Assembly: GCA_963576725.1 (NCBI GenBank)
Contig: OY755243.1
Coordinates: 72,686,106-72,750,105 of the forward strand
DNA from: Azorinus chamasolen
Taxonomy: Eukaryota > Mollusca > Bivalvia > Cardiida > Solecurtidae
DNA length: 64,000 nt
Direction: 5' to 3'
The notes beneath the pieces were generated by a model. That model was not told the DNA's origin and did not search any database. It saw nothing but the letters and a program-made list of their open reading frames with translations. Below are positions 1,072-63,764 of this stretch, piece after piece; position 1 is the first letter of the stretch; every line of letters begins with the position of its first letter. The position numbers were made by a program, and so were the translations under genes.

Positions 1072-1320
1072 TTAACCATTTCCTTCATATAAAAGCCTTT
1101 TCACGCATTTGCAAACAGAGTAGACCCAGATCAGACGGATCCTATAGAAGCCGTATGATCAGGGTCTGCTCTGTTTGCGTTTGTCATAATATGTGTCTGA
1201 TTCTACAGCTTTCGTTAAAGCAAAATATTTTCTTGAAAAGTTTTCATTATAAAAAATCAGCTGATAAATATTCATGATCTAAAAAAATCTTATATGAATA
1301 TTGAACAGGGAAAGGGTTAA
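1072..1320 (+). mobile_element. TTAA-1b MITE
   Basis: TTAA at both ends (1072-1075 and 1317-1320), CCATTTCC left end and GGGAAAGGG right end. The hairpin core runs from GCAAACAGAGTAGACC to GGTCTGCTCTGTTTGC. It lies about 50 bp beyond the stop codon of receptor gene 1, so it may be part of that gene's 3' UTR. Confidence 0.8.
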
Positions 1321-1369
1321 AGAGTTAAGCATATGAAGTGGTCGTATACATGTTTTTCATGTATACCAG

Positions 1370-2998
1370 TCATTCTGTTTGCGTCGAGATGTAATTGTTC
1401 ACTCTTGTTGACAGAGTGCCAGCCGTGGGATTTCCGTTGATGAGTCTCAAGTACTTTCTGGCACAATTCTTGTTGAATACGAACGAAGCAAATATAAACA
1501 CACCTTGACTCGCATTTAATACAATGAATATATATTCAACCCACTTCTCAACTATGGACATATACAAGAAGCCAAAGATCCACAGGCACCCTGTAAGGAC
1601 AGACAGTCTGACATAAACACCAGAGAAGCGTCTTTGTTTTCCCGACGTAGAACTCACATTAACAGACTTGTTTAATTTCTTTACGATTACAATGAATAGA
1701 ATAATGTTTATACATATGATTATACCCAAAGGAAGTGCAAAGGTCAGTAAGATGATTTGATTATTGGAAAGATAGCACAGAGTTTGTCCGTACCCCGTGT
1801 CCCCGTCATCTTTTAAAATGTTAGTTACACTATTTACAGCCACTGGTAAAGTGGCAAATACCGCGGTATATATCATATGCATTCCTGTTCTTCTCGCCGA
1901 AATGCGGTGATCACGGTTTTTGTTTAGCGTCCAGAAAACTTCGAAAGAATAAATACAGCAAACATTCATCCACATTACGGTGTTGAGCCAAAAGAAATGA
2001 ACTAGAATGCCTAGTACCGTACATGCCCAGTCTGGTATGCTGTCTTTTTGACCTACACCGAACTGAAACATCACCTGAGCGATAATCAGATTAATACAAA
2101 GTGCAATATTGTTGGCACCAGGTTGGGTTCTCATTTCTTTGAACAGGCTGTATGTCAGTACTGTTAGCAACGAGCAGAGTACAGATATGCACGTGCACAC
2201 GAGGGACAGAATACCCACGTCTAGCGCAGAGGATTGCACCGACGTCGTTCTATATGTTACAACTGGTATCGAACTGTCCACGAAGGGTTGTATCAAAGTA
2301 TCATACATATCAGTACATATCATGATAGACACCAATTCGGCCGAATTGTTTTGACTCAGAAGCACATTCCAATGAGAAACATTTGCATTGAGCTCGGATA
2401 TTCGTACACCCCATGTGAAATTCTGAATTTCAAATTCTTTGACGTATAGAGTTACAAGCGGACACATGGACGTCGACAGCAATGTTATAGTTGGTACATC
2501 ACTTTTAACTTGAGACCAATTTCCAAAACCGATATCATACAAAGTAAGTGTTTCACCGTCAAATGCATTGTACATTTCCTCTGGAATATCTGTTAGCGCA
2601 TTTAGCAGAATGATTTCGGCAACAAACCCATACTCCGCAATAGCAAAGGATTTTCCTCCAACCTGAAGAAGTGTGTCTATGAACAGGACACTCACTTCAA
2701 CCCAATATGGAATGGCAACACTAATGTGTAATACAAAGTAAGGGGAAACGGATGAGTTGGCAGATGTAGCGAATAACTGTAAAACATAAGATTCAATGGA
2801 AACGTTCCTCATTAAATCTGCTCCAAATATCACAACAGCATTAGTGATAAAGTCATCAATAAACGTTGTTAAAGTCTCCAAAGGGGTCAGTTTGACAAAG
2901 ACATCTACAGTGACACCGCTGAATTGCTTTACTGAGTTTTGGCAAAATCTATTCTGTAAAATCCTCGGTGGTAAACAGGTGATCGTCCTGCACTTGTC
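1370..2998 (-). CDS. receptor gene 1, exon 2: linker plus 7TM domain
   Basis: C-terminal exon of a family B / adhesion-like G-protein-coupled receptor (secretin-like 7TM fold), expected in the plasma membrane. The exon starts at 2998 after an AG acceptor preceded by a pyrimidine tract; 39 in-frame codons precede the TTG at 2881, so 2881 is not a real start. The first 260 residues or so are extracellular, with several N-glycosylation sites (NVS, NSS, NWS, NFT, NNS). Seven hydrophobic helices follow, at roughly residues 600-850 of the joined protein. Family features include KEMRTQPGANN after TM1, the Cys of DWAC before TM3, RISARRTG before TM4 and a Cys in TLCY before TM5. I see no Cys-rich GPS with an HL/T cleavage site before TM1, so autoproteolysis is unlikely. 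The tail is short and ends near TQTE. It pairs with the exon at 4188-5210 through a phase-0 intron. The joined product is about 883 residues. The paralog at 13091-14725 is very similar. Ligand unknown. Confidence 0.88.
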   Translation of the reverse strand, partial: DKCRTITCLPPRILQNRFCQNSVKQFSGVTVDVFVKLTPLETLTTFIDDFITNAVVIFGADLMRNVSIESYVLQLFATSANSSVSPYFVLHISVAIPYWVEVSVLFIDTLLQVGGKSFAIAEYGFVAEIILLNALTDIPEEMYNAFDGETLTLYDIGFGNWSQVKSDVPTITLLSTSMCPLVTLYVKEFEIQNFTWGVRISELNANVSHWNVLLSQNNSAELVSIMICTDMYDTLIQPFVDSSIPVVTYRTTSVQSSALDVGILSLVCTCISVLCSLLTVLTYSLFKEMRTQPGANNIALCINLIIAQVMFQFGVGQKDSIPDWACTVLGILVHFFWLNTVMWMNVCCIYSFEVFWTLNKNRDHRISARRTGMHMIYTAVFATLPVAVNSVTNILKDDGDTGYGQTLCYLSNNQIILLTFALPLGIIICINIILFIVIVKKLNKSVNVSSTSGKQRRFSGVYVRLSVLTGCLWIFGFLYMSIVEKWVEYIFIVLNASQGVFIFASFVFNKNCARKYLRLINGNPTAGTLSTRVNNYISTQTE

Positions 2999-3247
2999 CT
3001 GAAAAAAGGATCACAATTGTTTTACATTATTGTCCGTGAATATATCGATTAAAGTACATGTACTGCACATAGATTTTCAATAATTTTCAGTTTAATATTA
3101 AAGAATGACAGTGTATAAGACGCTGACCATTTCAGTTATGAAAATCAAATCCTAATAATCTGAAATAAATGTGTTGATTTGCCATTCACTTTTGATGAAA
3201 ATATTAAACAGTGAAGATAATATTCCAAAAAGGGAATTAAGATAATA

Positions 3248-3426
3248 CAGAAATACTTAAATAGCTCTAGCTATTATTTAGACCACTTCGGACCTTTATC
3301 AAATATTATCATGTCAAAATACACGTCAGTGTATACACCAAAAATGTGACGTGTATGTTGACATGATAATCTTTGATAAAGGCCCGTGGTGGTCGAAATA
3401 TTATATAAGAGCTATAAGTATTTCTG
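3248..3426. repeat. 179-bp foldback element in intron
   Basis: The left arm starts CAGAAATACTTAAATAGCTC and the right arm ends with its near-complement AAGTATTTCTG. Both arms carry CCTTTATCAAA...ATTATCATGTCA and ACACGTCA, with an unpaired centre of about 20 bp. No target duplication recognised and no other copy in the window. Confidence 0.7.
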
Positions 3427-3940
3427 AAAACATCAAATGTGGCGCTCTTTGAAAAAAGGCAATCATACCTTGTTGAAAACAGTGTAGACCCAGGTCACAC
3501 ATCATGTCTATGATTAAGACTCGTACATAGGACGGAACGATAGAGAAATGGGGGCACTGCATTATAACCCTTTTCACAGAGAGCCATTTATGTAAGTAAA
3601 ACAACAACAATACGAACAGTTCGTAGCACTTGTTGAAATCATATCGTCAGCAAAATTATTGCGAGTCTTGACCAATAATACTTTCACGAAAATGTAACTT
3701 ATCTTTGGCAAATACATGACCGTCATCATACAAATGAACCGCATCAAAAGAAAGGGGACGAGGCACGACATTAAAAGGAGCGTAGACCATCACATCGGAA
3801 ACTACTCTCCAGTGACGGAACAAACACACACATTTGGGCTTTTTAATGAATATAAAATGTACTGTATACAAAACCTCGATTAGTTGGTCTACACTGTTTG
3901 CAAATCCCTGAGTAACTATTTCCCGTAAAGATGACAACGG

Positions 3941-4168
3941 TTAAACCCTTTCCCTGTTAACTATTCATATAGGAAATAATGACGTCATAAATATTAATAA
4001 GATTATTTAAGACATTTTGGCTCAGGCAGAAGCTGTAGAATCAAATCTATAATACGCCATAAACAAACAGAGCAGACTTTGATCAGACGGCTCCTATAGG
4101 AGCCTTTGATCTGGGTCTTCTCTGTTTGCAGATCCGTCAAAATGCGCTTACGTAAGGGAAAGGGTTAA
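3941..4168 (-). mobile_element. TTAA-1b MITE beside a splice donor
   Basis: Starts TTAAACCCTTTCCC and ends GGGAAAGGGTTAA. The hairpin is ACAAACAGAGCAGAC to GTCTTCTCTGTTTGC around GGCTCCTATAGGAGCC. Its end is about 20 bp inside the intron from the donor of receptor gene 1. Confidence 0.85.
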
Positions 4169-4187
4169 TTGATTATGGACACATTAC

Positions 4188-5210
4188 CATAAACCGATCG
4201 TGGAAGGTATTTGGGCCGCATAGAGTATCCAGGTCCGTGACCTCATGCACGACAACTGTTTCTTCTGGTGAATCGTACCGGAACAGCAACGCAAACGATG
4301 ATTCAAACAAAATATTCGGATCAGGATTATTGAGACATATGAAAGGAACGTCAAGTGCATAAACGGGAGCAATGTTACAAACGACTTTACCATCAAATAT
4401 GTCTGTAAAACAAACGACATGAATATCTACATTGCAGACTTGTGTTCTGCTGATTTCGCACGCAGGAGCAATAAGTCCAATTTCTGCTGGTTTTTCAAAG
4501 AGGATATTACAGCCAACAGTCCGCTGTATATCAGTTACAATCGTGTCGTAATTACTTGGCCAAAAGGCTTCGTCATAGCACTTGATTTTGGGATACCAGA
4601 ATACCATTGCGCCTTCGGGAATATCGTGGCACTGTGCACAAAATCTGTTTCCATACGTGAGTCCCGTGCGCCTGTCAGAGACGGGTATCTTAGTCTCTAG
4701 GCCAACATACTCATCGGCATGCTCGCATTTGTGAACGGTTTTATTCATGCTTGAATCAAACTGACTGTAGTAGCTGTATGGACATGCTTTATTAGCGTAG
4801 ACATTGTGTGTTTGTGATGGGTAAATAACTGTTTCTGGTCTAAGCTGAAGTTTTTCACAAGTGAACCGTGTCGACGAAAGTTGGTCAAATTGTTCAGACA
4901 GGACTCTCTCTGTTCTGTTGCAGAAGTCCCCATACATGTAACACACTTGATTATCGCAAGTACAGGACATACAACATGGGTTCGTCGGCAAGTGTAACGA
5001 AGTGAACACCGCACCCGGATATACCTGGTCACTGCCCCATACGTTACATGAGTTAGAATTACAAAGATCTTCAGCAACACTTGTTATGTTGGCTGTACTT
5101 GTTTCCAGAGACAGCAGCAAAAGAATTACAAGTGTGGTTTTGACAACACTCCCACCTCTCTGGAATGTTGCTATTATTTTCTTTCTCCGTATGTCACACT
5201 TTTCAAACAT
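4188..5210 (-). CDS. receptor gene 1, exon 1: signal peptide and Cys-rich ectodomain
   Basis: N-terminal exon of the receptor completed at 1370-2998. I place the start at the ATG at 5210 because the paralog has an ATG at the same place. The open frame continues upstream only through a TTG and a likely acceptor (TTTTGCAG before 5239), so a non-coding first exon is probable. Residues 1-40 form a basic stretch followed by a hydrophobic core (TTLVILLLLSLETSTA), read as a signal peptide. The rest is an extracellular domain rich in paired Cys, including a dense cluster CCMSCTCDNQVCYMYGDFC that recalls a small disulfide knot, and WYPKIKC further on. I do not recognise a named domain. It ends at codon ATG, followed by donor GTAATG, in phase 0. 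About 341 residues, the same length as in the paralog. Confidence 0.82.
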
Positions 5211-5255
5211 TCTCAAACAACGGTTCGTAGCACAATATTCTGCAAAAGCAATCAA

Positions 5256-6150
5256 AAGAATAAGTTTTCTCTATTAGCATCAAAACAAAAACAAAATCTT
5301 TTTGAGATACTTTCACGTCATGAAATAAGTATATGAAGGCATATGATATAATCCTTTAGGAAATCAATATAACTAATAGGATTTTCTGATTTCAGTGGAT
5401 ATTAGAATTCACTACAAAATAGAACCCCAATGGAACAATCCTGTTTCATGCAGAATACTTTTGTATGACAATTGCGCTCATGTATATTGCCAAGTACGAA
5501 CAGGACAAGACGTTAACACAGACCAATAAGGACAACGCATTTTTATATATATAGTATCCCTTCCAACGCTAATCAGAGCTGAATATCCCTTCTATGTTGA
5601 ACTAGGAAATCCACTCAGTATCAAAAGGCTTCAACTTACATGAGCATTTTCAATGACAAACAATGCAGACCCTTAACAGAAGGCGCCCCTAGATGCATAC
5701 GTTCCTACGAAGCTAATAACATGTAGAAGAAGATCCGGTCAAATTACATCTAAGGACAGGCATACAGACAGACGGACAATCGGATTCCAGTATAACCCCA
5801 TAATTTCACCACAGGGGTATACTAAGAAATACGCATGTGCGCGCGTCATATCATTTCCTCCTAGTCGATGAGATTTATAATAATATTTCATATAATAATA
5901 CATACGAATATAAGGTTCTTTTTATCAGATAAAACACGAAACACGACAAAATTGGACAAACGCGCGTATCTAGTTTTTTTTGTGAATTCGTGTCACTGAA
6001 AGGGGTGGGGGTGTAAACTTTGGAGAATATAGGAGCCGTCTGATCAGACATTTGCTTAAAGAATACTATACCTTCTGCCATTGTCAAAAACTCAAGTGTC
6101 CATATATCAGAGCAACAGATAAAGGTGCGTACTCAAATACTAAAATCGCC
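5256..6150. other. 5' flank of receptor gene 1 with decayed repeats
   Basis: No gene recognised. The stretch 5735-5830 (ACAGACAGACGGACAATCGG, then CCCCATAATTTCACC) looks like a worn interspersed repeat. A truncated TTAA-1 arm (GAGCCGTCTGATCAG) is at 6030-6050. Confidence 0.4.
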
Positions 6151-7201: not shown

Positions 7202-7461
7202 TTAACCCTTTCCCTCATATAAACGTGTTTTCACGCATTTGCAAACAGAGTAGACCCAGATCAGACGGCTCCTACAGGAGCCGTCTGATCAGGGTCTACT
7301 CTGTTTGCTAGTGGAATTTGAAATATCTGTTTCTTTTCTTTCTAAAACGGCTACAATGTTCCACCTTCCATGTTTCATTATAACTATTTTATTAATATAT
7401 TATTAATAATATTCAGTAGGTATTGAAATTTGGACTAAGTATAGAACAGGGAAAGGGTTAA
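7202..7461 (+). mobile_element. TTAA-1a MITE, well preserved
   Basis: A complete 260-bp copy: TTAACCCTTTCCCTCATATA at the left, GAACAGGGAAAGGGTTAA at the right. The hairpin at 7240-7308 has apex GGCTCCTACAGGAGCC. The long half includes CTGTTTCTTTTCTTTCTAAAA and a TATTCAGTAGGTATTGAAAT block. Good reference copy. Confidence 0.92.
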
Positions 7462-8708: not shown

Positions 8709-8998
8709 ACCTTTATCGGATGAGTGTTTATTACGAGAAATCATGAAACAATGAATATCAGTTCCATTTATGTCTATTATAGCACATGGTGATGCGCAAA
8801 AGGCAGATGTAATAAATACAAAATGTGTTTATGAAATTTCCGCCAATGGCATCCTAACTGAACAGACCCTGTGAGATGAGAGTCGGACAAATACTGCACA
8901 GAACACCCGGGTAGAACCACTCATCTATACCGCAAGACAGCTGGAAGGCTTCCTCATTTGTCCAGGTCAGAATTCGAATTACAGCGGTTGATGGCTTA
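8709..8998. other. no recognisable feature
   Basis: Single-copy-looking sequence between two elements. I see no exon, RNA gene or repeat in it. Confidence 0.4.
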
Positions 8999-9210
8999 CA
9001 GTAGAACCTGTCTTAAGCGACCGTCAAAAGGAGGTCAAATTATGGGTATGTTAGGTAGGTGGTAGCTTAATGCAGTTCGAAAGTAATGCAGAAAGCTCCT
9101 ATAGGAGCTTTCTGCATTACCTTTGCCATGCATAAAGGTATAAAGAAGCACCTGCTTTTTAAGACTCCCGTGTTCAATAAATAAATGGCCGCTTTATACA
9201 GGGTTTACTG
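8999..9210. mobile_element. TA-2 palindromic MITE
   Basis: CAGTAGAACCTGTCTTAAGC at the left, flanked by TA on both sides. The core AGGTGGTAGCTTAATGCAG leads to apex AAGCTCCTATAGGAGCTTT. The right end GGTTTACTG has drifted. Confidence 0.85.
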
Positions 9211-9246
9211 TATATCAAATGGATATTTATCAATGAATGGATGTTA

Positions 9247-13090: not shown

Positions 13091-14725
13091 TCATGTTTGC
13101 CGTATACTATAATTCCCCACTCTTGTTGTCAGTGTGTCAGAAGTGGGATTTCCGTTGATGAGTCTTAAGTACTTTCGTGCACATGTCTTATTGCACACAA
13201 ACGAAGCGAATATAAACAGGCCTTGACTCGCATTTACGACAATGAATATATATTCAATCCATCTTTCTGATTTGAACATGTACAAGAAGCCAACTGTCCA
13301 AAGAAATCCTGTTAAGACAGACAGTCTAACATAAACACCAACGAACTGTCTTTGTTTTCCCGAAAGTGGATTGCCATTAACAGACTTACTTAATTTTGTT
13401 ACGATTATTATGAACAGAATTATGTTTATACATATGACAATGCCCAAAGGTAATGCAAACGTCAGTAAGATCATTTTATTATTTGAAATATAACACAGAG
13501 TTTTTCCGTACCATGTGTCCCCGTCATCGTTTATAATGTTAGTTACACTATTTACAGCCACTGGTAAAGTGGCAAATACGGTGGTATATATCACATACAT
13601 TCCTGTTCTCCTTGCCGAAATGCGGTGATCACGATGTTTATTTATCGTCCGGAAAACTTCAAAAGAATAAATACAGCAAACATTCATCCACATTACGGTG
13701 TTGAGCCAAAAGAAGTGAATTAGAATGCCTAGTACCGTACATGCCCAGTCAGGTATGCTGTCCTTTTGACCTACACCGAACTGAAACATCACCTGAGCGA
13801 TAATCAAATTGATACAGAGTGCAATATTGTTGGCACCAGGTTGGGTTCTCATTTCTTTGAACAGGCTGTATGTCAGTACTGTTAGCAACGAACAGAGTAC
13901 AGATATACACGTGCACACGAAGGACAGAATACCCACGTCTAACGCGGAGTTCGGCATTCTAATATATATTGAAGCATTGTTTACAGCTGGTGTTGAACTA
14001 TCTATGAAGGGTTGTATCAAAGTGTCATACAGATCAGTACATATCTTGATAGATACCAATTCGGCCGAATTGTTTTGACTCAGAAGCACATTCCAATTAG
14101 AAACATTTGCATTAAGGTCAGATATTCGAACACCCCATGTAAGATTCTGAATTTCGAATTCCTCTACGTATAGAGTAACTAGCGTACACATCGATGTCGA
14201 TAGCAGTGTTATAGTTGGTGCAAAACTGGTAGCCTTAGACCAGTTTCCAAGTTTGAAATCATACAAATTAAGCATTTCATTGTCAAACGCATTGTACATT
14301 TCAGACGGAGTATATTTTAGCGCATTTAGCTGAATGATTTCGGTAACAAACTGATACTCCGCTACAGCAATGGTTTTTCCTCCTACTTTAAGAAGTGTAT
14401 CTATGAACAGGGCACTCACTTCAACCAAATATGAAATGGAAACACTGATGTGTAATACAAAGTAAGGGGAAACGGAGGAGTTGGCAGATGTAGCGAATAA
14501 CTCTAAAGTATAAGATTCAATGGAAACGTTTCTCATTAACTCTTCTCCAAACTGCACAACAGCAGTAGTTGTAACGTCATGAGTCAGTGTTGTAAAGGGG
14601 GTCTGCAAAGGGGCAAGTTTGATGAAAATCTGTATAACGACACTGCTGAACTGTTGAACGGTGTTTTGGCAAAGGCCGTCTTGTAAAATCCTCGGTGGTA
14701 AACAGGTCAGCTTTCTGCATCTGTC
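13091..14725 (-). CDS. receptor gene 2, exon 2: linker plus 7TM domain
   Basis: C-terminal exon of the second family B / adhesion-like receptor, closely similar to 1370-2998 along its whole length. The true exon start is 14725, after TTTTCAG; 39 codons precede the first in-frame alternative start at 14608. It starts DRCRKLTCLPPRIL where gene 1 has DKCRTITCLPPRIL. The 7TM region keeps KEMRTQPGANN, DWACTVLG, RISARRTG, TLCY and the TM7 NASQG motif. Divergence is highest in the juxtamembrane segment before TM1 (near VNNASIYIRMPNSALD), where gene 1 has a different sequence, and in the extreme tail. No GPS cleavage signature is visible. It joins the exon at 17808-18830 in phase 0, giving about 885 residues. 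The two copies are head-to-tail, a recent tandem duplication. Confidence 0.88.
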   Translation of the reverse strand, partial: DRCRKLTCLPPRILQDGLCQNTVQQFSSVVIQIFIKLAPLQTPFTTLTHDVTTTAVVQFGEELMRNVSIESYTLELFATSANSSVSPYFVLHISVSISYLVEVSALFIDTLLKVGGKTIAVAEYQFVTEIIQLNALKYTPSEMYNAFDNEMLNLYDFKLGNWSKATSFAPTITLLSTSMCTLVTLYVEEFEIQNLTWGVRISDLNANVSNWNVLLSQNNSAELVSIKICTDLYDTLIQPFIDSSTPAVNNASIYIRMPNSALDVGILSFVCTCISVLCSLLTVLTYSLFKEMRTQPGANNIALCINLIIAQVMFQFGVGQKDSIPDWACTVLGILIHFFWLNTVMWMNVCCIYSFEVFRTINKHRDHRISARRTGMYVIYTTVFATLPVAVNSVTNIINDDGDTWYGKTLCYISNNKMILLTFALPLGIVICINIILFIIIVTKLSKSVNGNPLSGKQRQFVGVYVRLSVLTGFLWTVGFLYMFKSERWIEYIFIVVNASQGLFIFASFVCNKTCARKYLRLINGNPTSDTLTTRVGNYSIRQT

Positions 14726-15141
14726 CTGAAAAGTATTTATATATGTTTAACAGTAGTAACTCTTTAAAATGAATGAATGAATAAATGAAAGAATGAATGA
14801 ATTAATTTGATTTTAAGAGTGTAGCAGCTCGTTTAGTCAAAATACTTATCTCCACCGAGGCCCTCAAAATAAGTACATGTCATACAGTATGACAATTTAA
14901 TACATTTAAACAAATAAAGAGCATATTAAATAATAGTGTATCAATTATACGTGTACACTTCCCTTTACTAAAATATTATATCTGCACCCAAACAGGGTAG
15001 TCCCTAATTAGAAACTCCTGGGTTTGACTTTGATCTACGTATTTGTTTATAATATCCGAATATAATATTTCTGGTGAAAGGCAATTAATTTTCAGGAATA
15101 TTCATATCACATTTTGAAGCCGCATTGTCCCTTCCATGAAT

Positions 15142-16158: not shown

Positions 16159-16408
16159 TTAACCCTTCGCTTGCTATTCGCGTCAATATACCTACCTGTA
16201 AATAGTGAAGACCCAGATGAGACAGCTCCTGCAGGAGCTGTCTCATCAGGGTCTGCACTATTTACAAGTTGATTGTGCAACCAGTGCACTCCACAGCATT
16301 GATTACAAAGCAAAATACTTATACACAGTGAAGATATATGTAATTATACAACAGGACATGGGTAAAGAATGAGAAATGTATTTTAAAATTCAGCAAGCGA
16401 AGGGTTAC
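16159..16408 (+). mobile_element. TTAA-3 MITE
   Basis: TTAACCCTTCGCTTGCTATTC at the left, CAGCAAGCGAAGGGTTA at the right. The hairpin AATAGTGAAGACCCAGATGAG closes at CAGCTCCTGCAGGAGCTG. The second half holds TTGTGCAACCAGTGCACTCC and ATTATACAACAGGACATGGG. Confidence 0.9.
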
Positions 16409-16506: not shown

Positions 16507-16949
16507 TTAACCCTTTCCCTGTTCTGTGTTTATTCCAAATTTCTGTACCTACTGAATAGTCATGGACAAAATAGTTGTAATGAAAAATAGAAGGTGGAAT
16601 ATTGTATACATTTTAGAAAGCAAAGAAACAGATCTATCAAATTCTATTAGCAAACAGAGCAGACCCTGATCAGACGGCTCCTATAGGAGCCGTCTGATCA
16701 GGGTCTGCTCTGATTGTTAATTGAATTTGAAAGATCTGTTTCTTTACTTTCTAAAATGGCTATAATCTCCCACCAACCACATGTCATTGTAACTATTTTT
16801 TCCATGAATATTCAGTATAGGTATTGAAATATGGACTAAATACAGATCATGGAAGGGGAACAGACCCTGAACAGACGGCTCCTACATGATCCGTCTGATC
16901 TGGGTCTACACTGTTTGCAAAGTCGTGACAATAAGAAGGAAATGGTTAA
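16507..16949. mobile_element. symmetric TTAA-1a palindrome plus attached hairpin
   Basis: From 16507 to about 16857 both arms are the long half of TTAA-1a: CCCTTTCCCTGTTCTGTGTT...AAACAGATC on the left and its complement on the right. Both hairpin arms read CCTGATCAGACGGC, unlike ordinary copies. A second hairpin (CAGACCCTGAACAGACGG to CTGGGTCTACACTGTTTGC) and a TTAA at 16946 follow, so it is probably a fusion of two elements. Confidence 0.8.
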
Positions 16950-17314: not shown

Positions 17315-17730
17315 TACAAGTAGATGCCCGTGGGCAGCATGTCGAGCCTTAGAGCTTAGGGTGACCGCCTGTTCTGTTTGCTTATGATATGATATACAGT
17401 AAAACCCCGCTAATGCGACCACCTAAAAGAGGTATACTTAGAGGTGCTAGATGCAGGTGGTCGCTTAATGCAGGACAAAAGCAATGCAGAAAGCTCCTAG
17501 AGGAGCTTTCTGCATTAATTTTGTCCTGCATTAAGCAACCACCTGTTTATAAAGACACGCATGTTTATTCATTAAGTGGTCGCATTAGAGGGGTTCTGCT
17601 GTAGATATGATTCTACAGATTCTGCCATAGCGAAAAGTTTCCGTGTCCCTGTGCTGTTATAAGAACTAATCTAGTTAACATTTATGATGTCATTATTTCT
17701 TACATGAATATACATGGAGTACAGGGTTAA
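17315..17730 (+). mobile_element. TTAA-1b MITE split by TA-4
   Basis: The left piece ends CTGTTCTGTTTGCTTATGATATGATA; after the TA-4 insert it resumes GATATGATTCTACAGATTC and ends GGAGTACAGGGTTAA. The left terminus is not clear. Confidence 0.7.
17397..17601. mobile_element. TA-4 palindromic MITE nested in TTAA-1b
   Basis: CAGTAAAACCCCGCTAATGC left, GCATTAGAGGGGTTCTGCTG right, TA on both sides (17395-17396, 17602-17603). Apex AAGCTCCTAGAGGAGCTT with AGGTGGTCGCTTAATGCAGG core. Confidence 0.92.
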
Positions 17731-17807
17731 TGTTTGAAATGACCGGATTGACCATTTGTCCTTCACGTTGACCAAACTACTGCATTATTTGACAATAAAT
17801 ACAATAC

Positions 17808-18830
17808 CTTATATCGGTCGTAGTAGGTATATGGACCACAAACAGACTCCAGGACGGCGGTCCCATGCAGTGCAGGTGTCTCCTCTACTGAATTATACAC
17901 AAACAGTAACGCAAACGATGAAAGGAAAGAAAAGTCTGCAGGTATCAGTCTGGGGCATGCGTAAGGACCCCCGGGTGCATAGACAGGGGCAATGTTACAA
18001 ACGACGTCAGACGGATCTGCAAAACAAACGGCGTGAATATCTATATTGCAGACGTCAATACTACTGATTTCACACGCAGGAGCAATAAGTCCAATTTCTG
18101 CTGGTTTTTCAAAGAGGATATTACAGCCAACAGTCCGCTGTATATCAGTTACAATCGTGTCGTAATTACTTGGCCAAAAAGCCTCCTTAATACATTTGAT
18201 TTTGGGATACCAGAATACTATTGCGTCTTCGGGAATATCGTGGCACTGTGCACAAAATCTGTTTCCATACGTGAGTCCCGTGCGCCTGTCAGAGACGGGT
18301 ATTCTAGTCTCTAGGTCAACATACTCATCGGCATGCTCGCATTTGTGAATATTTTGACTCATGCTGAAATCAGCCTGTGACATTGTATAGTAGCTGTATG
18401 GGCATGATTTATTCACATAGATATTATTTGTATGGCTGGGATAGTAAACCCCAGCTGGTCTAAGCTGAAGTTGTTCACAAGTGAAGCGTGTCGACGATAG
18501 TTTAACAAACTGTTCAGACAGGACACTCTCCGTTCTGTTGCAGAAACCCCCATACATGTAACACACTTCATCATCGCAATAACACGACTTACAACATGGG
18601 CTAGTTGTCGGGGGATACAACGTGAAAACACTACCTGGATATACAGTTTCATAGTCCCATACGTTACATGAAGTTGATTTACATAGATCTTCAGCAATAT
18701 GGATCATGTTGGCGGTACATGATTCTAAAGCCAACAGCAACTGGATAACAGTCATTGTTATGACCACACTTCCACCTGATTGGACAGATCTCGTCGATCT
18801 AGTCCTACTGACTGCGCTTCTTCTGCACAT
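17808..18830 (-). CDS. receptor gene 2, exon 1: signal peptide and Cys-rich ectodomain
   Basis: N-terminal exon paired with 13091-14725. I chose the ATG at 18830 because it matches the position in gene 1; another ATG at 18848 is in frame and possible. An acceptor-like CTATTCCAG stands before 18858. The exon frames just after the acceptors differ between the two genes, which argues that the upstream exon is non-coding. A basic segment is followed by a hydrophobic core (TMTVIQLLLALESCTA), read as a signal peptide. The ectodomain keeps the Cys cluster as CCKSCYCDDEVCYMYGGFC, and nearly all other Cys of gene 1. The stretch from HKCEHADEYV through NRFCAQCHDIPE to EKPAEIGLIAPACEIS is nearly identical in both genes, while the C-terminal third (18000 and below) has drifted more. 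It ends AAG before donor GTATTG, phase 0. Function presumably ligand binding. Confidence 0.82.
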
Positions 18831-18875
18831 TCTCTGGCAACGGTCCATAGCTCGGTTTCTGGAATAGGCATGCAA

Positions 18876-19049
18876 AACACATATTCACTCTATTCTTCAG
18901 AAATTAAACACATACTATTAGAACTGTGATTTTAGCAATTGTATAATGTGTTTTAATGTGAATTAGAATATCTTTAAAAAATGAAAGTTCATATATTCAG
19001 AATAACTTTGCATGGCATACTCTCAAACATATTGTCGCCTACGAATAAG
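18876..19049. other. spacer, no feature seen
   Basis: AT-rich sequence between the receptor exon and the minisatellite. Confidence 0.4.
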
Positions 19050-20345
19050 AAATAATACTAACAACGGCACTCGCACATTTGGGCCTGTATAGATCTACAC
19101 TCGCGTATATATGAAGCGATATTCGGTCCTATAAGACTGACGCTCGGACGTACATAGACTGACACTCGGACAAATATAAACTGGCACTCAGACATATATA
19201 AACTGACATTCGGACCCATATAGACTGACATACGAATAAGAATCAATAATGACAATGACACTCGCACGGTCGGTCCTACATAGACTGACAATCGGACATA
19301 TATAAACTGGCACTTGGTCCTATATAGACTGGCACTGAGACAGATATAAAGGAACATTCGGTCCTATATGGACTGACACTCAGACATATACAAAGTAACA
19401 ATCAGTCCTATATAGACTGACACTCAGACATATACAAAGTAACAATCAGTCCTATATAGACTGGCACTGAGACAGATACAAAGTAACAATCGGTCCTATA
19501 TGGACTGACACTCAGACATATACAAACGAACATTCGGTCCTATATAGACTGACACTCAGACATATACAAAGTAACAATCGGTCCTATATGGACTGACACT
19601 CAGACATATACAAAGTAACAATCAGTCCTATATAGACTGCCACTCAGACATATACAAAGTAACAATCGGTCCTATATGGACTGACACTCAGACATATACA
19701 AAGTAACAATCAGTCCTATATAGACTGCCACTCAGACATATACAAAGTAACAATCGGTCCTATATGGACTGACACTCAGACATATACAAAGTGACAATCA
19801 GTCATATATAGACTGACACTCAGACATATTCAAAGTAACAATCGGTCCTATATGGACTGACACTCAGACATATACAAAGTAACAATCAGTCATATATAGA
19901 CTGACACTCAGACATATACAAAGTAACAATCGGTCCTATATGGACTGACACTCAGACATATACAAAGTAACAATCAGTCATATATAGACTGCCACTCAGA
20001 CATATACAAAGTAACAATCGGTCCTATATGGACTGACACTCAGACATATACAAAGTAACAATCAGTCATATATAGACTGACACTCAGACATATTCAAAGT
20101 AACAATCGGTCCTATATGGACTGACATTAACACATATACAAACTCACACTCGGTCCTATATAGACTGTCACCCTGACAGATATAACGTAACATTCGGTCC
20201 TATATTAACTGACACTCGGGCATGTATAAAGTGACAGTTGTACATTATAGATTGACACTTAGACACTTGGACCTATACAGACTGACACTCGGTCATACAT
20301 AAACTGATAGTTGGACATATATGCAATGATACTGGTATGTTTGTA
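19050..20345. repeat. 22/44/88-bp hierarchical minisatellite
   Basis: Tandem array with a 44-bp unit made of two related 22-bp halves (GACACTCAGACATATACAAA and AACAATCGGTCCTATATGGA). In the centre (about 19370-20120), units ending TGGACT alternate with units ending TAGACT, giving an 88-bp higher-order repeat. Both edges are more diverged than the centre. Open frames over it are by-products of the repeat. Confidence 0.9.
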
Positions 20346-26364: not shown

Positions 26365-26609
26365 TTAACCCATTTGTTCCGAGTGTCCCTTAAACGGGTC
26401 GTAAGCAAATAATGTAGACCCAGATCAGAGGATCCATCTGATCTGGGCTCCTGAAGGAGCCCTCTGATCAGCGTCTGCACTGTTTGATGTCAGTGGCTTA
26501 TTCCAACAAATATTTTGTTACATGTGTCCCCTCAAGATGAAAATTGGAGGCATTCCACAATGAAATTTGGACGAGTTTTCTTCATATAATGTGGGAATAA
26601 ATGGGTTAA
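26365..26609. mobile_element. TTAA-4 element
   Basis: TTAACCCATTTGTTCC left and GGAATAAATGGGTTAA right form terminal inverted repeats. Inside are two overlapping hairpins: CCCAGATCAGAGGATCC with CTGATCTGGGC, and GGGCTCCTGAAGGAGCCC with CTCTGATCAGCG. The only fairly complete copy in this window. Confidence 0.78.
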
Positions 26610-27416: not shown

Positions 27417-27645
27417 TTAACCCATTCCCTCATATTGACGACTTTTGACGACTCTGTAAATGTCACTTTGTGAAACCATTGTGATAAATAGAGCATTTGC
27501 TCCTATAGGAGCAAATGCTCTATTTATCACAATGGTTTCAAACTACAACATTCTAAAATTTTCCTTTTCTCTAATTAATGCTCCTTTTCGGTAGATTAAT
27601 TCAAAGAGGTTGTATCTAAAAATAGCCTATGAGGTAATGGGTTAA
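27417..27645 (+). mobile_element. TTAA-2 MITE, well preserved
   Basis: A 229-bp copy with TTAA on both sides. Perfect hairpin around TTTGCTCCTATAGGAGCAAA extending through GAAACCATTGTGATAAATAG. Good reference copy. Confidence 0.94.
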
Positions 27646-27870: not shown

Positions 27871-28070
27871 ATGGAAATTTAGAACTTAGTTTGTGACTCA
27901 CACACGCTGCATGCATGACTTCCTGTTTTAGGTAATCACAGATGCGACATTGGCAGCATAATAATTAAAACTATACTTTACTACATCTTTATGTAAATAG
28001 ATGTAGGCCTATGCTTCACTACATCTTGGTGCACACCTCAAATGCAAAGTCAAACAGAATATACTGTATA
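27871..28070. other. spacer, no feature seen
   Basis: Includes GATGTAGGCCTATGCTTCAC; no feature assigned. Confidence 0.3.
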
Positions 28071-28275
28071 CAGTAAAACCTCTCTATAACAGCCACTAAA
28101 TTACATCAAGTATGTCGTGTTAAAGACAGGTGGTTGCTTTAAGCAATGTGAAAGTAAAACAGAACGCTCCTATAGGAGCGTTCTGTTTTACTTTCACGTT
28201 GCTTTAAGCAGCCACCTGCCCTAATATACCAACTAATTAGCACAATTTAATGACCGTTATAGAGAGGTTTCACTG
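28071..28275. mobile_element. TA-1 palindromic MITE
   Basis: CAGTAAAACCTCTCTATAAC to TTATAGAGAGGTTTCACTG with TA flanks; apex AACGCTCCTATAGGAGCGTT. Confidence 0.92.
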
Positions 28276-38571: not shown

Positions 38572-39190
38572 ACCTAGATAACAGAGATCTAGATAACAGA
38601 GACTTAGATAACAGACACCTAGCTTACAGAGACCTAGATAACAGAGACCTAGACAACAGCGACCTAGATAACAGATACATAGATAACAGATACATAGATA
38701 ACAGATAGATAACAGATAGATAACAGATACCTAGACAAATGAGACTTAGAAAACAGATACATAGATAACAGATAGATAACAGATACCTAGACAAATGAGA
38801 CTTAGAAAACAGATACATAGATAACAGATAGATAACAGATACCTAGACAAATGAGACTTAGAAAACAGATACATAGATAACAGATAGATAACAAATACCT
38901 AGACAAATGAGACTTAGAAAACAGATACATAGATAACAGATAGATAACAGATACCTAGACAAATGAGACTTAGAAAACAGAGACATAGATAACAGAGATC
39001 TAAATAACTGAGACTTATATAACATATACATAGATAACAGATACCTAGACAACGGCGACCTAGATAACATATACATAGATAACAGATACCTAGACAGACA
39101 ACAGATACTTATATAACAGAGACATAGATAACAGAGATCTAAATAACTGAGACTTATGTAACATATACATAGATAACAGAGACATTTGCT
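38572..39190. repeat. ACAGATA-type minisatellite with 56-bp higher-order unit
   Basis: Short words (CTAGATAACAGAGAC, ACATAGATAACAGAT) repeated throughout. From 38700 to about 38990 a 56-bp unit starting ACAGATAGATAACAGATACC and containing CAAATGAGACTTAGAAAACA recurs about five times almost exactly. Open frames rich in Leu/Tyr/Ser across it are artefacts. Confidence 0.88.
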
Positions 39191-40781: not shown

Positions 40782-41031
40782 GTAACCCTTCTCTTGCTGA
40801 TTTTTAAAATACAGTTCTCCTTCTTTACCCATGCCCTGTTGTATAATTACATATATCTTCACTGTGTACAAGTATTTCGTTGTGCAATCACTGCTGTGGA
40901 GTGCACTGGTTGCACAATCAACTTGTACATAGTGCAGATCCTGATGAGACAGCTCCTGCAGGAGCTGTCTCATCTGGGTCTTCACTATCTACAGGTAGGT
41001 ATATTGACGTGAATAGCAAGCGAAGGGTTAA
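40782..41031 (-). mobile_element. TTAA-3 MITE
   Basis: TAACCCTTCTCTTGCTGATT left, ATAGCAAGCGAAGGGTTAA right. Perfect apex CAGCTCCTGCAGGAGCTG. Confidence 0.92.
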
Positions 41032-42028: not shown

Positions 42029-42205
42029 GGTCCATGCTTATAAAGCTTTTTAGTTGAGTCTGAGTTTTTTCGCAAGCTTTTGATTGGTCAGATTTGAGTT
42101 CTCAAGCTTTTGATTGGTCAGATTTGAGCCAAAGGCTCAAATCTGACCAATCAAAAACTTGAGAACGAACTCAGACTCAACTAAAAAGTTTTATAAGCAT
42201 GGACC
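42029..42205. repeat. FB-1 foldback element
   Basis: GGTCCATGCTTATAAAGC to TTTTATAAGCATGGACC, a 177-bp palindrome. The left arm carries the unit TTCTCAAGCTTTTGATTGGT plus CAGATTTGAG twice, the right arm once. Apex GAGCCAAAGGCTC. Confidence 0.9.
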
Positions 42206-46078: not shown

Positions 46079-46342
46079 TATGGTCCTGACAGGTATACTC
46101 TGTCATGGTTATAAGAATTTAGTTTTTTTAAATAAGTAAAGTGAACGTAGATTGTAATGAGTTATATCTAATCTTAATTACTGGTTACATACAATACTCT
46201 TCCTAGACAGTGATTACTTTTCAGTTTATTACAAATGACTTATAGTTATTAGATTCATTGTTTCATTGTTGCGAGTCCCAAGGAAATTCAAAATCGCACT
46301 TTGGATTTTTATGTTCAACAAGAGCCAGCATGAGTGTATATA
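46079..46342. other. intronic spacer
   Basis: No feature recognised. Confidence 0.35.
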
Positions 46343-46686
46343 CAGTGAACCCTCATTATACCGGCATTCGTTACAATGGCACCCTCGTTATACCGGCAGT
46401 ATGCATTGAAACAAAATTACCGTTACGTCTCTGAAACAACCACCGAATATTTAGGTGCAATGCCAATAAGACAGGTGATCGCTTTATGCAGAACACAAGA
46501 AGTGCAAAAAGCTCCCACAGGGAGCTTTATGCCCTTCTTGTGTTCTGCATTAAGCGATCACCTGTTGGCACTAGTTTAAAACTGGCCACATGGTTCCTTT
46601 CATATTTAAACTCGTTATAACGGCAACCTCGTTATACCAGCAAAATGTCTGGAAACAAACACCTCCGTGGTAACGACGGTTCACTG
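46343..46686. mobile_element. TA-6 palindromic MITE
   Basis: CAGTGAACCCTCATTATACC left, TAACGACGGTTCACTG right, TA flanks. Two TTATACCGGC-like words per arm, core CGCTTTATGCAGAACACAAG, apex AAAGCTCCCACAGGGAGCTTT. 344 bp. Confidence 0.92.
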
Positions 46687-46773
46687 TACGACAACGTCTA
46701 TTTGATACAGGTGCATGTGATAGGTTCATGGGATTGGACGATCGCCACTACTTGTCAAACGTTATCAAATATA

Positions 46774-50829: not shown

Positions 50830-51120
50830 TTTACCTGACAGAAAAGCCTTTTGAAGCCTTTACAAAGTACATCCAGACCAGACTGCTCCTATAGGAGCCG
50901 TCTAATCAGAGTCTGTTCTGTATACAGTAAAACCTCTCCTATAACGGCCACTAAATTACATCAAGTATTTTGTGTTAAAGGTATAGGCGGCTGCTTAAAG
51001 CAAGGTGAACGTAAAACTTTCACCTTGCTTTAAGCAGCCATCTGCCATAAATACCAACTAATTAACATAATTTAGTGGCCGTAATAGAGAGGTTTACTGT
51101 TATATAGATGTGATTCCAAA
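50830..51120 (+). mobile_element. TTAA-1b fragment split by TA-1
   Basis: CCTTTACCTGACAGAAAAGC, hairpin ACAAAGTACATCCAGACC to GAGTCTGTTCTG with apex GCTCCTATAGGAGC, then the TA-1 insert, then TATAGATGTGATTCC. Confidence 0.68.
50925..51099. mobile_element. TA-1 MITE without apex
   Basis: CAGTAAAACCTCTCCTATAA to AATAGAGAGGTTTACTG. The centre is AAGGTGAACGTAAAACTTTC; the GCTCC tip is deleted. Confidence 0.85.
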
Positions 51121-52775: not shown

Positions 52776-54113
52776 CGAGGGGTGTTCCAAAAATAATGTC
52801 ACTTGCATCGGTGCTCATATAGCGGAAGTGCTTTTGTTCATTTTAATTTGCTCTGCCCTTCAAAATACTCTCCGCCAGCCAGAATACACCTTTTTAGCCG
52901 GTCAATCCATTTTTGGAAGCATTTTTCATACTCTTCAATGGGGACACCCATCAGACACTGATAAACAGCAGATCCAAGGGCATTTCTCGAATTGTATCTC
53001 CTTCCAGATAAATGATATTTAAGTTTTGGAAAGAGAAAATAGTCACAGGGGGCCAAGTCTGGCGAATACGGAGGGTGCGGAAGGACGGTAACCTTCTCTG
53101 ACTCCAAAATGTCAGTCACAATACGTGCCTTGTGAGCGGGTGCATTATCATGCAAAAGTCGGACATACTTAAGTCCTGTTTTGGGGCGGCTGCTTTTGTA
53201 GTAGTTCTTCAATTTTCTCAGAACAACGTTTTTATAGAACTTGCCTGTGACCGTTCTGCCTTTTGGCACCGGGATTTGAATAGCTGGACCCTTATTAGTG
53301 AAAAAAATAGCATACAAAACCTTCTTTACCGTTCGTATTCGTTTGGCAATACTTGGGCGTCTGGCATTTTTAGTGGCCCATATTCGGTTGGAAACCTTCC
53401 GCTTTGGTTCAAAATAATACACCCAGGTCTCATCACCAGTGACTATATTATCAAAAGCCTTTTTACTATATTTTGGGTACATTTTGAGAAGTTTTTTTGC
53501 CATTGTTACACGCGTCTTCTTTTGCTCATCCGTTAACAAATGGGGTATCCATCTTGCATTTATCTTTCTAACTTTTAGGTGTTTCTTCAAAATTGCATGA
53601 ACTCTTGCTAACGACAAGTTTGTCATTCGAGCCAATTGTCTTACGGTGAATCGAGCATCAGTTTTGAGGATATTTCGGAATTTTTCTATGTTACCTTTGG
53701 TCGTAGTTGTTGCAGGACGACCTGGGCGAGCAGCATCTTTCAGTTGCTGCTGCCCAGCACTAAATTTAGCTACCCACCTACAAACAGTCCTGTGGGACAT
53801 TTGGCCCTCCCCATAAATGTCACACACCTCGCGGTGAATATCTACAGCCTTTATGCCGAGTAATGACCTACCTTTTATATAGGCCCTAATTTCAAGAACA
53901 TTTTCAGCTCGTTTTCCTGTCATTTTGTGTATAGTCTAACGAATAGGCTATGAAACGATGTACACTGTACCGAGGCAAGTGAACGTGTGGACGAGATATT
54001 TACCTGTGTCACGAGCCAGTGATCACTCAATCGACACGAGGTGGTTTTGTGCATGAATTGCACGATTTCCGCGAAATAAAGCACAGATGACATTATTTAT
54101 GGAACACCCCTCG
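52776..54113 (-). mobile_element. complete mariner transposon
   Basis: A 1338-bp element flanked by TA on both sides (52774-52775, 54114-54115). Terminal inverted repeats of about 26 bp start CGAGGGGTGTTCC and differ at one position (AAAAATAATGTCA against ATAAATAATGTCA). One uninterrupted transposase gene lies inside. The length is typical of mariner elements. Nearly identical ends and an intact gene suggest recent arrival. Confidence 0.95.
52838..53923 (-). CDS. mariner transposase (DD34D), intact
   Basis: 361 residues, no internal stop. It catalyses cut-and-paste transposition at TA. The N-terminal half holds paired helix-turn-helix DNA-binding motifs (VDIHREVCDIYGEGQMSHRT, then RTVCRWVAKF; later RQLARMTNLSLARVHAILKK). 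The linker motif WIPHLLTDEQKK corresponds to the mariner WVPHEL signature. The catalytic triad is D in TGDETWVYYF, D in LLHDNAPAHKA and D in YSPDLAPCDYFLF, with exactly 34 residues between the second and third Asp, hence the mariner DD34D type. The ATG at 53923 follows an upstream leader of about 190 bp inside the right terminal repeat. Slightly longer than the usual 345 residues. Confidence 0.96.
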   Translation of the reverse strand: MTGKRAENVLEIRAYIKGRSLLGIKAVDIHREVCDIYGEGQMSHRTVCRWVAKFSAGQQQLKDAARPGRPATTTTKGNIEKFRNILKTDARFTVRQLARMTNLSLARVHAILKKHLKVRKINARWIPHLLTDEQKKTRVTMAKKLLKMYPKYSKKAFDNIVTGDETWVYYFEPKRKVSNRIWATKNARRPSIAKRIRTVKKVLYAIFFTNKGPAIQIPVPKGRTVTGKFYKNVVLRKLKNYYKSSRPKTGLKYVRLLHDNAPAHKARIVTDILESEKVTVLPHPPYSPDLAPCDYFLFPKLKYHLSGRRYNSRNALGSAVYQCLMGVPIEEYEKCFQKWIDRLKRCILAGGEYFEGQSKLK

Positions 54114-54778: not shown

Positions 54779-55195
54779 ATTAACCATTTCCTTCATACAA
54801 ACACTTTTTCACGCTTTACAAACACAGTAGACCAAGATCAGACGGCTCTTGTAGGAGCCGTCTGATCAGGGTCTGCTCTGGTTGTTTTCAAAAGTATAAT
54901 GGACCCTGGGTCCATGCTTATAAAGCTTTTAGTTGAGTCTGAGCTTCGTTCTCAGGCTTTTTGATTGGTCAGATTTGAGTTCTCAAGCTTTTGATTGGTC
55001 AGATTTGAGCCAAAGGCTCAAATCTGACCAATCAAAAGCTTGAGAACGATCTCAGACTCAACTAAAAGCTTTATAAGCATGGACCCTGACTTCAACCAAT
55101 ACCAAAATGCATCTGTACATATGGAATAATAAACAAAATGACTCCTTATGTGGTTATTTTTTACATTAATATGCAAGAGGGAAACAAACAAAAAC
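54779..55195 (+). mobile_element. TTAA-1b MITE split by FB-1
   Basis: ATTAACCATTTCCTTCATAC left. Hairpin ACAAACACAGTAGACC to GGTCTGCTCTGGTTG, apex GGCTCTTGTAGGAGCC. After FB-1 the body resumes TTCAACCAATACCAAAATGC and ends TATGCAAGAGGGAAAC. Confidence 0.75.
54909..55085. repeat. FB-1 foldback nested in TTAA-1b
   Basis: GGTCCATGCTTATAAAGC to GCTTTATAAGCATGGACC. The same internal layout as 42029-42205, including two copies of the TTGATTGGTCAGATTTGAG unit on the left and one on the right. Confidence 0.92.
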
Positions 55196-62655: not shown

Positions 62656-62724
62656 CTGAAATGGACAAAGAGAAATAAACTTCATGTACACTAATTGTCT
62701 AATTGTATCCGAGTAATATGTACA

Positions 62725-62890
62725 ATGCAAACACTTTTCGCGCCTTGGCAAACAAAGTAGACCCAGAGCAGATAACTCCTGTAGGAGCAGTCTAATCAGG
62801 ATCTACTCTATTTGCATAGATCTGATTCTCCAGTTTGTGCCTGAGCAAAAATGTCTGTCATCACATACCATTATAAACTTATTCTAATTT
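62725..62890 (+). mobile_element. TTAA-1b MITE, ends missing
   Basis: GCAAACAAAGTAGACCCAG to GGATCTACTCTATTTGC, apex AACTCCTGTAGGAGC, then TAGATCTGATTCTCCAG. Confidence 0.72.
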
Positions 62891-63214
62891 CAGTTGAACT
62901 TTGATATCTCGAACTCGAATAACCCGAATTTGGAGTTAACTCGAAATAAAACTTCGGTCATGCCAAAATTTACATTACAGAATTGTTCTTACATGTATCA
63001 CAACGTATTTCTAGAAATACATGCGGCAGCTTAATGCAGATTGAAAGTACTACCGAAAGCTCATACAGGAGCTTTCCGCATTACATTAGAACTGCATTAA
63101 GCTGTGAAATTGAGAAATGATTAAGATTTGTCCTGCATTAAGCAACCACCGGCTTATGAAATATGAAGACACTCATGTTTATTTATTAAGTGGTCGCATT
63201 AGAGGGTTTCTACT
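62891..63214. mobile_element. TA-3/TA-4 hybrid MITE
   Basis: Left half is TA-3 (CAGTTGAACTTTGATATCTC, GGCAGCTTAATGCAGATTG, apex AAGCTCATACAGGAGCTTT, GCATTAAGCTGTGAAATTG). At about 63130 it switches to the TA-4 right arm (TGTCCTGCATTAAGCAACCA, TAAGTGGTCGCATTAGAGG, TTTCTACTG). Confidence 0.87.
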
Positions 63215-63223
63215 GTATATACA

Positions 63224-63519
63224 GTAGACACCACGTAAAGCGATTTATTCATCAATTCATATGGGTGTCTTTTTCTCTGTTCAATACGCATGTAAGAAAT
63301 AGTGATATCATGGATATTGATAAGCTGAATTTTTATCACGCAAATGTATCAAGGAACTTATTTGCGTTGACAAAAACTATAGAATCAGATCAATATCATT
63401 TCAAAAGCAAACACAGCAGACAATGATCAAACGGTTCCTATATATACAGGAGCTATCTGATCTTGGTCTACTCACTCGCAAAAGCGATAAAAGGCATCTG
63501 TATGGAGTAAAGGTTAAAA
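63224..63519 (-). mobile_element. TA end fragment and TTAA-1b MITE
   Basis: CAGTAGACACCACGTAAAGC (a TA-family left end) is cut by a TTAA-1b body: GCATGTAAGAAATAGTGATA, hairpin GCAAACACAGCAGAC with CTATATATACAGGAGC tip, right end TATGGAGTAAAGGTTAA. Confidence 0.72.
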
Positions 63520-63560
63520 TCGCACAACAGACTGTGCACACATTTTAGAAGTTTGGAATA

Positions 63561-63764
63561 CAGTAAAACTTCGATTATCCGAACACTAAAATACGTATTA
63601 TTATCGCTCTTTAAGATAGGTGGCAGCTTAATGCATGGTGAAAGTCATGCAGAAAGCTCCTCTAGGAGCTTTCTGCATGACTTTCACCATGCATTAAGCA
63701 GCCACCTGCCTAAAAGGGTCTAAATTCTTCTATACCGAAAATTCGAATAATCGAGGTTTTACTG
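63561..63764. mobile_element. TA-7 palindromic MITE
   Basis: CAGTAAAACTTCGATTATCC to AATCGAGGTTTTACTG, TA flanks. Core GGCAGCTTAATGCATGGTG, perfect apex AAGCTCCTCTAGGAGCTTT. 204 bp; reference copy of TA-7. Confidence 0.93.

Follow-up and report, generated by a model that had tools for sequence, protein, structure and literature searches.

A hairpin tip shared by TTAA- and TA-flanked miniature transposable elements in the bivalve Azorinus chamasolen

In the genome of the bivalve Azorinus chamasolen, the 14-mer GCTCCTNNAGGAGC forms the tip of hairpins inside miniature inverted-repeat transposable elements (MITEs) with two different types of ends. It was found in a stretch of 64,000 nucleotides (nt) of contig OY755243.1, here called the window, and was followed through the whole assembly (GCA_963576725.1; 1,723,440,353 base pairs (bp)). 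The stem below the tip covaries between TA families, and copies of different families are joined to each other at the tip. We tentatively suggest, with a probability of about 0.4, that the tip, GCTCC(TNNA)GGAGC, is an inherited fold-back clamp and that template switching at this clamp both homogenises the stem and links one family to another. This explanation is favoured because it is the most economical account of a constant tip, a free loop, a covarying stem and diverging ends.

The tip is real and does not result from chance. The exact 14-mer occurs 29 times in the window and not once in 100 dinucleotide shuffles, and sequences with up to two mismatches occur 66 times where 0.86 are expected. 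Genome-wide, 389,419 exact copies stand against 58 of a control (the pattern reversed, read backwards), and if each of them marks 210–250 bp, exact tips account for about 5% of the genome. A palindrome scan which was blind to the tip (26-bp arms, at least 21 matches, loop of at most 12 nt) yielded 55 palindromes in the window, whereas three mononucleotide shuffles contained none. Of these 55, 36 differ from the 14-mer by at most two changes (25 being exact), and several of the remaining 19 keep the same arms with a loop of different length. The same scan of 26 arbitrarily placed 10-kb stretches of the genome (the sample) gave 142 palindromes, again with none in shuffles, 55 of which have an exact GCTCC..GGAGC tip, 33 a tip with at most two changes and 54 another or a lost tip. 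Hairpins were taken from the window, the sample and eight further loci if both 5-bp tip arms were exact and the loop measured 3–5 nt. Classified by their stems (at least 72% identity), all 114 belonged to five MITE stem types (A 41, C 28, D2 16, B 16, D1 13) and none remained unknown. The 14-mer is part of a MITE hairpin in every classified case, and its concentration in palindromic MITEs, which a preliminary description of the window had proposed, is borne out. The same description had listed 14 places with one identical tip and a single deviant, the family here named T6. Ten of the 14 are indeed exact, but four deviate: the tips at 27301, 33404 and 33842 carry one change each, and that of T6 at 46511 has the same 5-bp arms around another loop (GCTCC-CACAG-GGAGC). 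The range given there, 1072–63764, is the span which covers all copies. Overall, the loop of the tip is 3–5 nt long and free in its letters, with both half sites being kept.

Stems A, B and C lie in elements of the form TTAACCC...GGGTTAA, which we take to be piggyBac-like, and stems D1 and D2 in elements of the form TACAGT...ACTGTA, which are presumably pogo/Tigger-like members of the Tc1/mariner superfamily; the target sites and ends (TTAA with CCC, TA with CAGT) are as previously described. A MITE is understood here as an element of less than 600 bp without coding capacity, with terminal inverted repeats, a target duplication and a high copy number. The measured elements are 204–348 bp long and flanked by TA or TTAA, with the 389,419 tip copies given above. 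In the TA families T1, T2, T4, T5 and T7 of the window the tip is 100–111 bp away from both ends, mostly 104/104, and these five of the seven window families are of near-equal length (204–216 bp). T3 (121–178 bp in three copies) and T6 (177/171 bp) have longer ends, and the idea of an equal length for all TA families was rejected for these two. Within their long ends, T3 and T6 have the respective end motif repeated in short tandem arrays with periods of 15–17 (33240–33291 and 46349–46398), which may explain the greater length of these ends. In the TTAA elements the distances between tip and ends are 73 and 177–187 bp for stem A and 89 and 140 bp for stem C. Non-palindromic spacers separate the hairpin from the ends, so that left and right halves can be distinguished in many copies. 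With pairing near the tip and at the ends, and with such spacers in between, these are not fold-back or Angel-like elements, which are palindromic from end to end. Helitrons and Helentrons have a hairpin near their 3′ end together with CTRR, but neither terminal inverted repeats nor a target duplication; here, the hairpin is internal, the ends are inverted and the flanks are TA or TTAA, which speaks against an end hairpin of that kind.

Judging from the comparison of stems and ends, the tip appears to be common to two lineages, or to three if stem C is independent. Comparisons anchored at the tip placed the stems in three groups. A and B form the first, C stands by itself, and the third comprises the TA types, of which four were tested. 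Within groups the similarity was matched by 0 of 500 shuffles, and nearly all comparisons between groups were far from significant, the best among 24 TTAA–TA tests being 8 of 500. Local tests of six TTAA–TA stem pairs did not reveal any similarity either (121 to 783 of 1000). The stems of F and G, two TTAA elements with other tips, are homologous to stem A (0 of 1000 shuffles each). Stem C is weakly similar to G and to the right arms of B and A (15, 12 and 19 of 1000, respectively) and shows no similarity to the left stems of A, B and F (272, 151 and 289 of 1000). The terminus of C matches that of A (0 of 1000) and the terminus of F is like it (3 of 1000), while for the termini of B and G no likeness to that of A was detectable (521 and 112 of 1000). 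The preliminary description had counted about ten families, each with a stem of its own. This does not hold, as the TA families share one core arm and A and B form one lineage. Among nine TA consensuses, which were read off few copies and whose pairwise comparisons are not independent, the mean identity is 0.83 for the 30-bp core arm and 0.59 for the 27 bp of end after CAGT; core identity exceeds end identity in 34 of the 36 pairs. In T5 and T8 the core arms are identical, with an identity of 0.52 for the ends.

For a coincidence between two lineages the chance is about 10⁻³ on the 5-bp tip alone, far from the improbability of ten independent families arriving at the same tip. Two source elements with the same 5-bp apex would both have been hugely amplified, a founder effect which requires agreement among only two or three independent lineages and fits with the stems of TTAA and TA elements being without clear similarity. 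Two lineages would agree in a 5-bp half tip by chance about once in 1,000 cases, and six unrelated stem types should yield about 0.015 agreeing pairs. However, the agreement extends to the T..A of the loop and to a CAGA at equal distance from the tip (CAGAnnGCTCC). At least nine of 11 anchored matches have a chance of 1.3 × 10⁻⁴ for one pair, CAGA having been spotted post hoc, and stem C, if independent, would lower the chance by a further factor of about 1,000. Coincidence appears rather doubtful to us. A common descent of the whole hairpin, with one ancestral core being captured by both end types and the stems diverging beyond recognition, seems even less probable. It would agree with the TA core being more alike than the TA ends, with the stems of A, B, F and G being homologous although the ends of B and G have no detectable likeness to those of A past the first letters, and with the presence of CAGA beside the tip in both A and D. 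Nevertheless, both the anchored and the local TTAA–TA stem tests were at or near chance, and the distances between tip and ends differ among TA, A and C elements.

The stem pairs covary between TA families. In an alignment of ten TA hairpins, which we picked out of 67 located through their tip, both sides are altered in 17 of 41 stem pairs, and 94.1% of the 410 cells are paired, a value which none of 500 shuffles reached and which compares to 36–43% in slid structures. The alignment contains 31 double changes, along with 24 unpaired cells and 6 cells with one-sided wobble. Among the five tip pairs there is no change on both sides, and wobble occurs in a single cell. More G-U intermediates should have remained if selection had acted on RNA, but not if one DNA arm was copied from its partner; the excess of double changes (31) over one-sided wobble (6) thus points to copying at the DNA level. 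This test of compensatory changes via G-U makes an RNA role less likely. None of the Rfam models matched the window at gathering score. On the TTAA stem the pairs just below the tip also vary as matched pairs (CAGACG, CAGAGG, GAGAGA, GAGAGG) with the tip being constant. A search for new stems, in which such variants were seen and which required the tip and G/C at the second pair below it, returned 1,810 places; all 19 for which letters were obtained are variants of the A/B stem, with no new stem among them.

The fold-back clamp could bring these features about as follows. The 14-mer would be the apex of a long DNA hairpin, the core of abundant non-autonomous MITEs of two end types. During replication or repair synthesis over the hairpin the new strand might snap back at the tip, with one arm serving as the template for its partner, and thereby turn a single stem change into a matched pair of changes. 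Stems could thus drift between families and yet stay complementary. The clamp itself would not be correctable in this way, as any change in it would break it, and the tip would consequently stay constant while changes accumulate in the NN of the loop, in the stem and in the ends. This palindrome might also serve as a junction joining different families and so provide a route for one tip into both TTAA and TA elements, which would share it via exchange at the tip or via descent. We infer that snap-back copying takes place at source elements and that the sharing of the tip originates from chimeras; which lineage had the tip first would likewise be a matter of inference. According to two studies, template switching homogenises the arms of inverted repeats and creates compensatory changes (PMC8604942, PMC8794818). 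The arm homogenisation and the matched changes proposed here resemble that process. There, however, it is described for yeast genes and RNA genes, whereas here it is suggested for elements that give rise to dispersed repeats, and junctions link different families.

Alternatively, the tip could be required as a cis signal: the GCTCC(TNNA)GGAGC hairpin would be recognised by a host factor or by some feature common to the two mobilisation pathways, and elements bearing this tip would amplify best. The same tip in two superfamilies would be accounted for, and a loop of 3–5 nt with free letters suits a hairpin better than a duplex site for a dimer. A duplex binding site for a dimer is indeed disfavoured in its own right, since the length of the loop varies (3–5 nt) and the two half sites are nevertheless retained. 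In searches which left the tip unconstrained, the C stem was found at 109,560 and the D2 stem at 58,467 places, and nearly all tips among the matches listed are GCTCC-type or its apparent decay (judged by eye, with a few places being too altered to call). However, the TTAA stem GATCAGACG..CGTCTGATC, found at 89,830 places genome-wide (control 0), bears 63 GCTCC-type, 21 CCGCC-type and 16 CCGCA-type tips among 100 matches listed, with 34 of the 63 having both arms exact and some being strongly decayed. Next to the alternative tips CCGCCTT and CCGCAT, CCGAGT is a fourth tip, present on the GATGAGACG stem at 23 places in the window and the sample (at most six mismatches). The TTAA stem thus has at least four tips and GCTCC is not required on it. 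In addition, the palindrome families E, H and I have other tips and lack GCTCC.

The tips of resident copies do not appear to be protected either. In copies retrieved by one arm only, the difference of the tip was 0.16–0.19 in A (stem, i.e., other arm: 0.13–0.19, a value inflated by subfamily differences), 0.09–0.10 in C (0.04–0.07), 0.06–0.08 in D1 (0.06–0.11) and 0.14–0.17 in D2 (0.09–0.16); the row for B was mixed with A copies and not used. Resident A, C, D1 and D2 copies hence give no sign of tip protection after insertion, the tip changing at about the rate of the stem or above it. The earlier suggestion of a protein selecting the tip is weakened by these unprotected tips and by the three alternative ones on the TTAA stem, and we regard a required cis signal as unlikely. 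Hairpin stability alone was rejected, as it fails to single out GCTCC: this stem ranks high in stability as RNA, with 47 of the 1024 5-bp stems being more stable, but not as DNA, where 186 are more stable, including 124 of the 160 with four G/C. The G+C content of the tip is above that of the rest of the stem in nine of 11 hairpin types.

Tips are exchange points at which copies of different families are joined. A chimera pattern consisting of stem A on the left, the tip, and a C-, D1- or D2-like arm on the right was present at 79 loci genome-wide (control 0). In 47 of them the arm matches exactly (21 C, 12 D1, 14 D2), 66 are within one letter and 13 are further off; with 46,077 intact A hairpins at equal strictness, the chimeras correspond to about 0.2%. 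Out of 18 chimeras which were read (12 D2-type, four D1 and two C), 16 are half/half joins, in which the tip connects one half of an A element with one half of another element. These include L155, which was read rightward over only 24 bases and was counted as half/half, and L158, which starts with TTAA and ends with TA. The other two, both D2-type, are patches: in L156 an A arm and the tip lie within a TA hairpin, and in L160 nine D2 letters adjoin the tip of an A element. The interpretation in the preliminary description is supported in part: pieces of different families are indeed joined at the tip, whereas about ten independent families do not hold. It is conceivable, yet in our view doubtful, that the hairpin core is a semi-independent genetic module which outlives the transposon ends, its apex being a priming clamp for self-copying, by which the stem would remain complementary, as well as a crossover point for the passage of cores and tips between elements mobilised by the unrelated transposases pogo and piggyBac.

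Several observations weigh against the fold-back clamp. None of the 18 chimeras is a re-formed palindrome, and 16 of them fit a simple deletion between two neighbouring tips. As such half/half joins are the expected residue of these deletions, they demonstrate recombination at the tip but not the origin of the families. Palindromes of two right (R/R) or two left (L/L) halves of the same family are rare (one among the 113 rows in which both halves could be assigned, another 125 rows having been left out because one half was unidentified), and recent snap-back is therefore unseen in resident copies. The single R/R case is probably the stem A palindrome listed in Table 1. Loop inversion, an expected by-product of template switching, left no clear signal in the loop counts of A (TAGA 10 and TCTA 3; TACA 5 and TGTA 10) and C (ATA 8 and TAT 1). 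Furthermore, the several tips on the TTAA stem indicate that the clamp is replaceable, the unchanged tip pairs of the ten TA hairpins are partly a product of their choice by tip, and the TTAA and TA stems, being without clear similarity, give no evidence of a common descent of the whole hairpin.

Transposases of both types are present in the genome. At least 151 pogo-type DDE_1 matches were found, with scores for 150 out of 597 candidates, and many of the matches contain open frames of 450–630 residues. The one pogo-type element which was read has TACAGTCAAAT.. ends with CGATAATTCGAA, which are like T3 in kind and identical to no MITE end, and the exact tip is absent from the 2 × 801 bp around it. 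Of 110 piggyBac transposase matches, 15 span the whole domain without stops. Among the autonomous elements read (the one pogo-type element) none has ends identical to MITE ends. The TA elements resemble pogo/Tigger MITEs in their TA target, their CAGT ends and the open-frame pogo-type DDE_1 transposases of this genome, but their ends vary more than the internal arm, the reverse of what is expected for ends required for mobility. The TTAA elements resemble piggyBac-like MITEs in their TTAA target, their CCC/GGG ends and the presence of piggyBac transposases, but differ by a long internal hairpin with an exchangeable tip.

For piggyBac-type ends, palindromic transposase sites have been described, this tip being unmentioned in the available part of that source (PMC11707139). 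The zebrafish element Angel (Izsvak et al., 1999) is a palindromic MITE on which, according to a later review (PMC12628747), a stem-and-loop amplification model was built. Like the elements described there, those of A. chamasolen are short, non-autonomous and self-folding; unlike them, they have their hairpin as an internal core inside non-palindromic spacers, their apex spans two superfamilies and chimeras joined tip to tip are documented. A query of literature text with GCTCCTATAGGAGC, a single loop version, had no result, and searches by topic gave nothing on a shared MITE tip among the papers listed. A string of stem plus tip in a bivalve paper lies, in the portion of text concerned, within a polymerase chain reaction primer for a Mytilus gene (PMC10855951); as its preceding letter misfits stem A, a chance match is likely. 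No homologue was found elsewhere for a reading frame of a TA element, and a frame of stem B has one, an uncharacterised protein. In viral contigs no exact hairpin of type A or D2 with a loop of the form T..A was found, and at least 120 stretches from a looser scan of these contigs were taken as chance.

The elements of the window are listed in Table 1. Both E-type palindromes overlap a 30-bp direct repeat (42069–42128 and 54948–55009). Outside the window, a further tip-less palindrome family, CTCCACCAAACCCTATGTTGTGACCACTCTTTAGAATCGTCTC with a 3-nt loop and about 40 well-paired bp per arm, occurs at L012 1280, L016 1292, L029 5356, L033 8285 and other places. At L018 2409–3653, seven C-type hairpins within about 1.3 kb all have ACTCC on one side and GGAGC opposite to it, which represents a local MITE expansion. 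The window also contains paired long frames in two similar copies, all on the minus strand (1370–3010, 13091–14746, 4173–5270 and 17763–18884). The frame of 546 amino acids among them matches secretin-family seven-transmembrane receptors (Pfam 7tm_2), and the one of 551 amino acids reads alike. An uninterrupted frame of 365 amino acids at 52838–53935, also on the minus strand, encodes a mariner-like transposase (HTH_48, DDE_3, Transposase_1), and tandem arrays are located at 19123–20265 and 38572–39183 (periods 22/44/88 and 15/30/56/112, respectively).

Table 1. Hairpin-bearing elements and palindromes of the window (positions counted from its first letter).
Element	Position	Strand	Tip	Distances and remarks
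TTAA-type, stem A, end TTAA CCCTTTCCCTCATA..	7202–7461	+	7268–7281	73 bp left, 187 bp right
TTAA-type, stem C, end TTAA CCCATTCCCTCATA..	27417–27645	+	27499–27512	arms 89/140 bp
TTAA-type, stem B, ends TTAA CCCTTCGCTTGC.. / GCAAGCGAAGGGTTA	16159–16407	+	16225–16238	
TTAA-type, stem B	40782–41031	-	40952–40965	far end GTAA, not TTAA
TA-type T1 (CAGTAAAACCTCTCTATAACRGCCAC)	28069–28277	+	28166–28179	104/105 bp to ends
TA-type T2 (CAGTAGAACCTGTCTTAAGCGACC)	8997–9212	+	9095–9108	105/111 bp to ends
TA-type T4 (CAGTAAAACCCCGCTAATGCGACCACC)	17395–17603	+	17493–17506	105/104 bp
TA-type T3 (CAGTTGAACTTCGATATCTCGAAC)	33233–33556	+	33404–33417, one change (GCTCCTGCAGGGGC)	longer ends, 178/146 bp
TA-type T5	33743–33954	+	33842–33855, one change (GTTCCTCTAGGAGC)	106/106 bp
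TA-type T6	46341–46688	+	GCTCC-CACAG-GGAGC at 46511	longer ends, 177/171 bp
TA-type T7 (CAGTAAAACTTCGATTATCCGAACAC)	63559–63766	+	63656–63669	104/104 bp
Stem A palindrome, reading as two right halves (R/R)	16550–16817		16677–16690	134-bp arms, 85% complementary
TTAA-type palindrome, ends TTAACCCATTTGTTCC / TTAACCCATTTATTCC	26365–26609		26447–26460	second small palindrome in left arm beside tip
A-type hairpin tip	50885–50898			right side interrupted by TA element starting at 50923
Tip-less palindrome E (..GATTTGAGCC-AAA-GGCTCAAATC..)	42105–42157			second copy at 54986–55038

MITEs are usually grouped by their ends and accounted for by them, and in A. chamasolen it is the ends which differ more between families than the internal hairpin. 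With one apex being present across two transposase types at about 400,000 places, it becomes testable whether the hairpin of a MITE aids its multiplication and whether template switching maintains it. The chimeras joined tip to tip also illustrate concretely how unrelated repeats become linked through abundant palindromes.

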